Shown: positions 24,961-27,118 of the stretch, one piece after another
Layout of the letters: every line of letters starts with the position of its first letter
Position numbering within the stretch: the stretch's first letter is position 1
DNA from: Calditrichia bacterium
GTDB taxonomy: Bacteria > Calditrichota > Calditrichia > RBG-13-44-9 > J075
Direction of reading: 5' to 3'
NCBI GenBank assembly: GCA_028284905.1
Contig: JANQQU010000025.1
Span: 62,001-126,000, forward strand
Length of the DNA stretch: 64,000 nucleotides
Notes under the pieces: generated by a model
Told to the model about the DNA's origin: nothing
Database searches by the model: none
Seen by the model: only the letters and a program-made list of their open reading frames with translations
Program-made: the position numbers and the translations under genes

Positions 24961-25120
24961 AAATACGAGTGCAAACGGAAATTTTTGGATTAGCTTCTTA
25001 ATAATATTGCCCTTTCTTTCATCGTCATAATTTACTAATTATTTTCGATTTAGTCATTTATAAAAAGTTTCATAAACAGTACATATTTCTTGGTTGACCT
25101 TTCGAAGCACTGTTGATGAA

Positions 25121-25131
25121 AATCTTCTGGC
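25121..25131 (+). repeat. Left subterminal inverted repeat of IS
   Basis: AATCTTCTGGC, matched exactly in inverted orientation at 26537-26547. It lies about 327 bases past the transposase stop codon (3' side). Confidence 0.65.
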
Positions 25132-25457
25132 CTTTTGGGTCCTCCGGATTTGGAGCTTGGGAAGAGGGAAGACCTTTGGTTTTGTTTGTTGACCGATTTT
25201 GATGTTGCCATTATCTGTTGGTATTTGCCTTATCACTTTATTAGGAACTCGCCATGATGGTCTTATGGTCTCATCCATTTATTTGGTATTTGCCCCGAGC
25301 CTTCCGGGGTGGCTTTAGCTGCTTCAAGCCGATACATGAAGTGAACTCAGGAGTTGACCCGGCCGGTGTACATTCACGGATAGGATCGTCAATGCGATCA
25401 TGGCTAAAAAGGTACTACCGGCCTTCCTCGCGGCATCCAACAAAGACCCCTTCTATT
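25132..25457 (-). ncRNA. Candidate bridge/seek guide RNA region in 3' end of IS
   Basis: About 325 non-coding bases lie between the transposase stop and the subterminal repeat. In IS1111-type elements this end carries the guide RNA that directs target choice. Two clear stem-loops are visible: CCCCG/CGGGG (25293-25297 with 25305-25309, 7-base loop) and GATCG/CGATC (25384-25388 with 25395-25399, 6-base loop). The RNA's exact ends and its target/donor loops cannot be set by eye. The call rests mostly on position. Confidence 0.4.
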
Positions 25458-26474
25458 CTATTTGAAGGGTTGTTGGCGGGTCAACATCCAAAAGACCGCT
25501 TTGGCTATTCGTCTGGCCAAATTAGTTTTGGCTCTTATTTTTCCATGTTTTCTGACATCTCGGTTATATTTAGCTTTGTATTTAGGATGCCTTCTGGCCG
25601 TATGAGCGGCGATGACAAAGGCATATTTCAGAAAGTAGTTACAATGTTTGTTGAGCTTGATAATTCCTTTTCGGCCGGCGCTTTCATCTTCGACCGGCGC
25701 CAGGCCGCTATAGGAAATCAGATATTTCGGTGACTCAAAATAGGAGATAGAAAATATTTCGCTCATGATGATTCTGGCGGTTACAATACCGATACCCGGT
25801 GTGGTGAGCAGCAGTTTGATAGATGGATCCTTTTCGGGTAAGCATTTGTTCAGTCTGCGTTCTGTTGATTCAAGCTGCTTGTTAATCAGCCGAATTTGAT
25901 CTAAGAATTGCCCGATCATATGAGGGATATACCCCTGGAGATGATCAAGTGATGACAATTCGGGGTCATCCAGCAATGCCCGAGTCGTAGAGCGAATGCC
26001 ATGCATGGCCAAAATAGCCTGGATACGATTCGATAAGCTGCGGCTTAGCCCAACCAACATGAAACGATGGCGGCAAAGGCTGCGAAGCTCTAGCTCAGCT
26101 GCACTCGCTAAGTGAATCACCGGGCTTACGCCTAAACGATCAATCTCGCTTAGCATCTCGGCATCGATCCGATCATTCTTGGCGCGGCCATAGCCCTTTT
26201 GAACGGACAACTCTTGTGCTAAATTACGACTGCGGCGAGGATCAACCACTTGCAGTTTTGATACCTTTGCTTGAGATAAGAGCAACTGGCTGATCCACCA
26301 ATGGTTGCGACCTGCTTCCAGCGATACCGACAGCGGGCCTTCAAGCTCATCAAGAACAGACAAAAGCGCCGCTTCTGATGTCGCTATCCTGCTCTTGAGA
26401 CCTAATGTGCCATCTGACGTCATGTGTTGAACCTGAATATGTTTCTTGTGAATATCTAAACCAACATAGTTCAT
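25458..26474 (-). CDS. IS110-family transposase
   Basis: DEDD-type transposase/recombinase of 338 residues. The start at 26474 gives MNYVGLDIHKKHIQVQ with AGGAG upstream; an in-frame codon 60 bases earlier lacks support. The N-terminal RuvC-like domain has the first Asp in GLDIHKK, a Glu in SLEAGRN and acidic residues in KNDRIDAEML. The C-terminal part (transposase IS116/IS110/IS902) has TTPGIGIVTA and the conserved Ser-Gly in SYSGLAPVEDESAGRKG. The gene appears intact, so the element may be active. It interrupts the space between the LytS kinase and a TPR protein gene. Confidence 0.95.
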   Translation of the reverse strand: MNYVGLDIHKKHIQVQHMTSDGTLGLKSRIATSEAALLSVLDELEGPLSVSLEAGRNHWWISQLLLSQAKVSKLQVVDPRRSRNLAQELSVQKGYGRAKNDRIDAEMLSEIDRLGVSPVIHLASAAELELRSLCRHRFMLVGLSRSLSNRIQAILAMHGIRSTTRALLDDPELSSLDHLQGYIPHMIGQFLDQIRLINKQLESTERRLNKCLPEKDPSIKLLLTTPGIGIVTARIIMSEIFSISYFESPKYLISYSGLAPVEDESAGRKGIIKLNKHCNYFLKYAFVIAAHTARRHPKYKAKYNRDVRKHGKIRAKTNLARRIAKAVFWMLTRQQPFK

Positions 26475-26536
26475 AACGAATCTCCTGGTTGCTTGTGGTG
26501 AAGGTTTTTGCTCACAGCTGCAATCTCGCTGCAAGC

Positions 26537-26547
26537 GCCAGAAGATT
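26537..26547 (-). repeat. Right subterminal inverted repeat of IS
   Basis: Reverse complement of the copy at 25121-25131, 63 bases upstream of the transposase start. Confidence 0.65.
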
Positions 26548-26565
26548 CAATACTTTTTACTACTT

Positions 26566-26593
26566 CACGGATGGCACGGATAGACACGGATTA
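26566..26593 (+). repeat. CACGGAT repeat, left copy
   Basis: Three spaced CACGGAT units directly outside the IS. A reverse-oriented relative lies at 27061-27089, so the pair brackets about 470 bases of non-coding DNA. The tail TATGAAATTAA also recurs near 27026. Confidence 0.55.
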
Positions 26594-26708
26594 ATATGAA
26601 ATTAAGGTTATTAAATTCATAAGTATTTAATTAGACTGCAAACTAAGTTTTTAAGGTCTTGAAGATTTAATAGTAAAAGGCAATATGAGCATGTTAAATC
26701 TCTGTTTG

Positions 26709-26791
26709 GACCTCACCCCCCGGCCCCTCTCCTAAGAGGCGAGGGGAGAAAGCCCCCATCTCCTTTCAGGAGAGGGGCTAGGGGTGAGGTC
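26709..26791. repeat. 83-bp near-perfect inverted repeat (CCTCACCCC type)
   Basis: The left arm 26709-26733 and right arm 26768-26791 (24-25 bases) are complementary apart from one extra base and one mismatch. The arms run from GACCTCACCCC to GGGGTGAGGTC. The centre is purine-rich. It lies in gene-free DNA between the IS and the TPR protein gene, and looks like a dispersed MITE- or REP-like unit. No coding potential was seen from 26594 to 27118. Confidence 0.65.
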
Positions 26792-27014: not shown

Positions 27015-27060
27015 ATGACACGGATATATGAAATTAATGGTTCACAAATCCGTCACTACT

Positions 27061-27089
27061 TAATCCGTGAAAATCCGTGCCATCAGTGG
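27061..27089 (-). repeat. CACGGAT repeat, right inverted copy
   Basis: Reverse-strand relative of the 26566-26593 repeat (ATCCGTG units, GTGCCATCAG end). It lies just beyond the 3' end of the minus-strand TPR protein gene. Confidence 0.55.
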
Positions 27090-27118
27090 CTTTATAAAAT
27101 TATGGAACCGGTTATTTC

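Follow-up and report, generated by a model that had tools for sequence, protein, structure and literature searches.

An insertion sequence of the IS110 family was found as a single copy in the window (the whole 64-kb stretch of DNA that was analysed). Its left end is short, its 3' non-coding region (NCR) is long, and it has an exact subterminal inverted repeat (sTIR) of 11 bp; a guide RNA is predicted in the 3' NCR by a match of both sequence and fold. The element is, with good confidence, an autonomous member of the IS110 superfamily whose recombination is guided by RNA in the manner of IS1111. The transposase gene, the sTIR, the fold, the agreement between the guides and a host repeat and the location at the end of that repeat can be read from the sequence itself; the RNA would be produced by the element, bound by the transposase and would direct insertion through a circle. 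The coordinates of the features are listed in Table 1.

Table 1. Features of the insertion sequence and its insertion site, in coordinates of the window
Feature	Position	Strand	Basis
Inferred IS body, flanked on both sides by a TG core (CA on the plus strand; 25108-25109 and 26566-26567), ends +/- about 2 bp	25110..26565	-	repeat homology, GC restoration, guide register
Right flank, TGCTTCGAAA on the minus strand; its junction with the left flank would read ..CGAAGC/CACGGAT	25100..25109	-	flank joining
Right sTIR, minus-strand sequence GCCAGAAGATT, 11-12 bp from the inferred right end	25121..25131	-	exact pair; shuffles
Core of the predicted guide (seek/bridge) RNA, about 133 nt, with the closing stem GUUGACCC/GGGUCAAC	25353..25485	-	fold
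Predicted hairpin 2, target-binding, GGCCGGU...ACCGGCC, with a large internal loop and an apical hairpin (25384-25399)	25361..25423	-	fold
Putative guide strand B (AUCCGUG; the following AA matches too), equal to the top-strand left target	25375..25381	-	flank match and profile
Putative guide strand T (CUUUUUAGCCA), complementary to the right target on the top strand, TGGCTAAAAAG	25401..25411	-	best NCR profile match
Predicted hairpin 1, across the tnp stop codon	25437..25476	-	fold
DEDD transposase/recombinase gene (tnp), 338 aa	25458..26474	-	intact ORF, domain matches, alignment
Ribosome-binding region of tnp, CCAGGAGATT, which repeats the sTIR word imperfectly for a third time and is predicted to pair with the left sTIR when the leader folds	26479..26488	-	fold; shuffles
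Left sTIR, minus-strand sequence AATCTTCTGGC, 18 bp from the inferred left end	26537..26547	-	exact pair; shuffles
Probable target: the end of the dispersed CACGGAT repeat (CACGGATGGCACGGATAGACACGGATTAA) at which the element is inserted	26566..26594	+	genome pattern count; repeat homology

Transposase gene and copy number

The transposase ORF is intact on the minus strand, from an ATG at 26474 to a stop at 25458. The product was matched by both PF01548 and PF02371 of Pfam above the cut-off and by NCBIfam NF033542 ('IS110 family RNA-guided transposase') with 188.5 bits (cut-off 140), and D7, E53, D101, D104 and S265 were invariant in an alignment of 10 rows. It thus has the DEDD RuvC-like domain and the C-terminal Transposase_20 domain by which the IS110 family (as a superfamily including IS1111) is recognized, and these matches and invariant residues bear out the intact DEDD transposase of this family that was named in the first-pass annotation. 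The C-terminal motif is GLAPVEDESAG, in which the Ser of the IS1111 motif GL-P----S(t)G is retained and is followed by A.

Only one copy of the element was detected in the host genome (8.55 Mb, 93 contigs), and the setting of exact ends from other copies, as proposed in the first-pass annotation, found no second copy to work with. Two distant IS110 genes were found elsewhere in the host genome, with 25-26% identity to this transposase. Among 40 genomes of the phylum, no relative besides the transposase itself was obtained at E 1e-40, and matches at E 1e-8 were obtained in 7 genomes, its own included. Among 385 genomes searched at E 1e-20, a match was found in 8 (its own included) and no relative above about 30% identity. 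No close relative was returned from genome and viral contig collections searched with single-protein patterns, and the closest plasmid-borne transposase in the plasmid search shared 28.8% identity. By sequence comparison the transposase is therefore an orphan, at most about 30% identical to anything found.

Such a locus could instead be a decayed or domesticated, inactive remnant, a state that would be compatible with RNA guidance in the past; the single copy, the relatives no closer than about 30% and the GLAPVEDESAG motif at the place where IS1111 and IS110 have SG or TG would agree with it. This explanation was judged unlikely, since the open frame retains every DEDD residue as well as the Ser, the sTIR and the guide fold are intact, the leader has a ribosome-binding site, and single copies are common, 110 of more than 300 IS being at one or two locations according to a passage of PMC11187229.

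Inverted pair and layout

The sequences at 25121-25131 and 26537-26547 form an exact inverted pair of 11 nt. When the two non-coding sides (100 + 358 nt) were shuffled with dinucleotides preserved, a pair of 11 nt was reached in 5 of 1000 shuffles, so that the pair on its own, at about 1 in 200, is not overwhelming. The distance from the left sTIR to the start codon is 73 nt, and the right sTIR ends 337 nt past the stop codon. Both the exact pair and the short 5' and long 3' non-coding ends had been noticed in the first-pass annotation and were confirmed. Its term 'IS1111 layout' holds for the sTIR together with the long 3' NCR, and does not establish IS1111 membership, the transposase lying outside the clade of IS1111 references (see below).

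Inverted repeats of other lengths were observed in two related elements. An IS110 relative (L025) has a 17-bp inverted repeat (TATAAAATGTCAACTCC) located 78 nt before the start codon and 175-188 nt after the gene, and an IS110-family plasmid element (L125) has an exact 29-bp inverted repeat, which is longer than the 7-17 bp of IS1111.

Predicted guide RNA

The minus strand of 25260-25490 was folded with -79 kcal/mol in comparison with -63.2 kcal/mol for shuffles (z = -3.75), and none of 200 shuffles was as stable; the longer stretch 25118-25490 folded less strikingly (z = -1.64). The predicted guide RNA is closed by a perfect stem of 8 bp, which encloses hairpins 1 and 2, and the two strands of the internal loop of hairpin 2 lie around CUUUUUAGCCA and AUCCGUGAA, respectively. 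Pair probabilities were 0.97-1.0 for the apical hairpin (GAUCG-loop-CGAUC) and 0.96-1.0 for the stem and apex of hairpin 2 in five of six sub-windows, the sixth being too short for the stem, and the two guide strands were mostly unpaired (0.68 and 0.80). The stem-loop at 25384-25399, taken as fitting a guide RNA in the first-pass annotation, did prove to be the apical hairpin of the predicted guide loop; the other stem-loop that it named (25293-25309) is present in the fold of 25260-25490 but lies outside the guide hairpin. No Rfam match was obtained within the window.

The 5' arm of the closing stem (25478-25485) is within the last codons of tnp, so that coding and guide sequences would overlap there.

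Insertion site and element ends

A dispersed repeat, CACGGATnnnCACGGATnnnCACGGAT, was found at 82 places of the host genome with at most 2 mismatches, and the reversed control pattern at none. A search with a less strict core preceded by AGCC found the repeat 81 times in the host genome and in 12 of the 40 genomes of the phylum (the host included), mostly in few copies. ATCCGTG in the left flank (in the orientation of the element) is the end of this repeat.

Many copies of the CACGGAT repeat with the TTTTTAGC leader occur in inverted pairs with a spacing of about 70-150 bp; in the window the repeat is present at 26566-26594 and 27060-27099. A second repeat is located at 26626-26700, with 80-89% identity to places on contigs C55, C7 and C73, and is adjoined by a GC-rich hairpin (26717-26784).

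The homology to the repeat ends at 26566. Among 29 readable copies of the repeat, GC stands directly before CACGGAT in 28, with A (19 of 29) and runs of T farther upstream; at this locus CACGGAT is preceded by the TT of the element, and joining the right flank restores the GC form of the repeat itself. The left flank matches the guide loop over 9 nt (ATCCGTGAA). The right flank, by contrast, agrees with the T guide only in part, which counts against the guide assignment, either as TG and then 7 of 9 positions with two G-U pairs, or as TGGCT if one G is lost. Three end models that differ by at most 4 bp were kept, based on the TG core (M1), on the restored GC (M2), and on a left extension of 16 together with an 11-nt B guide (M3), respectively. 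M1 was preferred because both junctions then have TG in common, as in the plasmid element L054. The sequence outside the sTIR under M1 is 18 bp on the left (20 bp with the core) and 11 bp on the right (13 bp with the core), the two variants shift each end by 1-2 bp, and from one copy we infer the exact ends to about 2 bp. The ends, which had been placed near the 11-base pair in the first-pass annotation, would thus be separated from it by about 16-20 bp on the left and 11-13 bp on the right, and not by the 7/3 spacing of IS1111.

All combinations of end positions (676) were also ranked blindly according to the guide match, for this element and for five plasmid elements that match the IS1111-like C-terminal consensus and were used as controls (IS4321, ISKpn4, L054, L055 and L056). 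The known 7/3 ends were ranked first in two of the five controls (IS4321 and L056) and fourth in L054. For this element no pair of ends stood out: (18,12), (18,13) and (20,11) were ranked 76, 33 and 28 of 676, respectively, and (5,21) was at the top, but with guides from other sequence; the candidates with a left extension of 16-19 used the guide loop. Since the blind scan is indecisive here, the end assignment rests on the repeat and not on the scan.

The element could instead span 25118-26554, with classical IS1111 ends that lie 7 and 3 bp beyond the sTIR, and its nearness to the repeat terminus would then be accidental. The 7/3 spacing is given as a rule in a passage of PMC11187229, the scan recovers it in the two controls, and the site joined at 25117/26555 has a match of 20 of 21 nt elsewhere in the genome (E = 0.08). 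With these ends, though, the 9-nt guide match would fall at target positions -18 to -10 and not across the insertion point, 7/3 was ranked only 375 of 676, and neither the stop of the repeat homology at 26566 nor the restoration of GC by the right flank would be accounted for; moreover, a two-copy relative (L009/L015) has sTIR extensions of 12/11, so that longer ones do exist in the family. Classical ends were accordingly judged improbable.

The 20-of-21-nt match to the flanks joined at 7/3 (L044, contig C12 of the host genome, 55715-55735) is probably due to chance.

Agreement of the predicted guides with the repeat terminus

A profile of the repeat terminus was made from 29 copies, with this locus excluded. 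The best match of the half CTTTTTAGCCA in the NCR had 12.3 bits and was guide strand T (next 5.9), and that of the complement of CACGGAT had 13.7 bits and was guide strand B (next 2.4). The best matches of both halves are therefore the two strands of the same loop, and their composite of 25.95 bits was equalled by none of 2000 mononucleotide shuffles (maximum 23.2) and by none of 940 overlapping stretches of equal length from the window. A guide RNA in the 3' end, as proposed in the first-pass annotation, is supported by this result; when compared with the flanking target as suggested there, the loop specifically matches the insertion site (9 nt of the left flank) and the terminus of the host repeat. 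That the NCR merely captured a fragment of the repeat, of which about 80 copies are present in the host genome, is very improbable, as a capture would be one contiguous stretch, whereas the halves here lie on opposite strands of the loop in opposite senses with the apical hairpin between them, and the IS1111 controls have the same split arrangement.

In the proposed RNA-guided insertion, the guide RNA would be transcribed from the 3' non-coding end after the transposase gene, and the two strands of one internal loop would pair with the two strands of the target DNA, CUUUUUAGCCA with the top strand to the right of the insertion point and AUCCGUG with the bottom strand to the left of it. The target spelled by the guides would be the host repeat terminus TTTTTAGC^CACGGAT, the form expected from them being ATCCGTGGCTAAAA, and the element does lie at such a terminus, in the orientation that the guides would demand.

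Comparison with known families

The controls, taken under the 7/3 rule, have an sTIR of 12-14 bp and a 3' NCR of 220-270 nt. Both T and B guides were found in three of the five (IS4321, L054 and L056), with lengths of 9-10 nt and 7-10 nt, respectively, overlapping at the insertion point; at the 7/3 ends, L055 gave T alone and ISKpn4 neither guide at full length. The starts of T and B are 24-27 nt apart in the three controls with both guides and 30 nt apart in this element (T at +46, B at +76). T comes first in all four, which is also the order given for IS1111 in a passage of PMC11187229. The guides of IS4321 flank an apical hairpin, as in this element, and L054 and L056 fold alike with small differences. 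A bottom-strand donor match of 6-7 nt at about -5..0 (-6..-1 in L055) was found at +163 to +196 in four of the five controls, all but ISKpn4. No convincing donor-binding loop was found in this element, in which the only matches near the junctions have 6 nt (ACUUCA at +115 and CAACAG at +237) and are at chance level.

The element resembles IS1111 (IS4321/IS5075, ISEc11, ISKpn4 and ISPa11; seekRNA) in its DEDD transposase (338 aa, against 330-350 aa in IS1111), in the sTIR with short 5' and long 3' NCRs, the longer one being downstream of tnp, in the length of the exact sTIR (11 bp, within the 7-17 bp of IS1111), in the predicted order of the guides, T being 5' of B on either side of an apical hairpin, and in a target within a repeat, ISPa11 being described in part of PMC11187229 as targeting REP. 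It differs from IS1111 in the inferred extensions outside the sTIR (16-20/11-13 bp, from one copy, against 7 (or 6)/3), in the sTIR word (AATCTTCTGGC against ATGGnC... in most controls), in the overlap of the 5' arm of the predicted guide RNA with the end of tnp, and in the motif SA in place of SG/TG. With the bridge-RNA group of IS110 (IS621 and ISCro4) it has in common the DEDD and Ser recombinase, the two-strand guide loop and sequence matches, though weak ones, to the two solved structures (9t56, E 4.8e-5; 8wt6, E 1.1e-4). That group has no long sTIR and, according to a passage of PMC11187229, a guide at the 5' end with the bottom-strand guide first, whereas here the predicted guide is in the 3' NCR with T first.

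L009/L015, from a genome of the same class, is like this element in belonging to the IS110 superfamily and in its 10-bp sTIR, long 3' NCR (500-505 nt), extensions of 12/11 and ribosome-binding site masked by the left sTIR, and is unlike it in its transposase (26% identical), its sTIR word and the lack of a clear guide match. A guide search in the relatives L009, L015, L026 and L030 gave no consistent T/B pair. No inverted pair of at least 8 bp was found near the ends of L026 and L030, and one 8-bp pair, 41-46 bp in, was found in L031.

In a tree of 27 rows, the five IS1111 references formed a clade (100/99), and the transposase studied here was outside it, at the tip of a long branch that had no well-supported neighbour. 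Constrained placements with IS1111, with a group centred on the haloarchaeal plasmid copies and with IS621/ISCro4 were not rejected (p-AU 0.26, 0.24 and 0.30, respectively). The element is therefore filed as a member of the IS110 superfamily that works like IS1111, without the 7/3 feature.

Predicted pairing of the left sTIR with the ribosome-binding region

AATCTTCTGG within the left sTIR pairs with CCAGGAGATT just upstream of the tnp start in the predicted fold, and 1 of 1000 shuffles was as strong; the left sTIR would probably double as a mask over the ribosome-binding site of the transposase in read-through transcripts. For a survey of this pairing, 19 elements were considered and 4 were dropped (3 without an intact frame and 1 without an inverted repeat of at least 9), and the remaining 15 were tested with a pairing region of 26 nt ending at the start codon. 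The pairing was better than 95% of shuffles in 7 of the 15 elements (6 of 14 without this one), and in 8 it was not. The combined Fisher p for the 14 others was 3e-9, which is overstated since the rows are related and the idea was derived from this element and five of these. An earlier, stricter count based on folds covered 6 elements and gave weaker support for each, the pairing being equalled by 1 to 37 of 300 full shuffles. The tendency of the left sTIR to be antisense to its own transposase's ribosome-binding region across IS110/IS1111 elements was seen in the survey set L009, L025, L052-L056, L118, L120, L123 and L125-L128.

The pairing across elements suggests a translational gate. Other IS, for instance IS10, IS50 and IS200, are known to have their ribosome-binding sites masked in read-through transcripts. 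No description of an IS110/IS1111 inverted repeat masking its own ribosome-binding site was recognized in the literature searched (listings of open papers). We tentatively propose, as a possibility rather than the favoured expectation, that an IS1111-like sTIR serves beyond recombination, the left copy being antisense to the ribosome-binding site and the right one a near-copy of it, so that read-in transcripts would be silenced and circle-junction transcripts translated. This element, with its orphan transposase and longer extensions, would then indicate that such a gate together with a 3' guide RNA extends beyond the IS1111 clade. Circle-junction transcripts would then start inside or past the left copy, or the right copy would compete for the left copy. 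In the minimum-energy fold of the joined circle leader the left copy was still on the ribosome-binding site, which argues against the part with a competing right copy.

Implications

RNA-guided recombinases are of interest as programmable tools for genome writing, and the guides known so far have been taken from a few well-sampled clades. With this element a deep branch not sampled before is added, its predicted guide can be read, and the long repeat family backs the guide without experiment. The pairing with the ribosome-binding site would give the sTIR a second, testable job, and, if the longer sTIR spacing is true, the 7/3 rule would not be universal.
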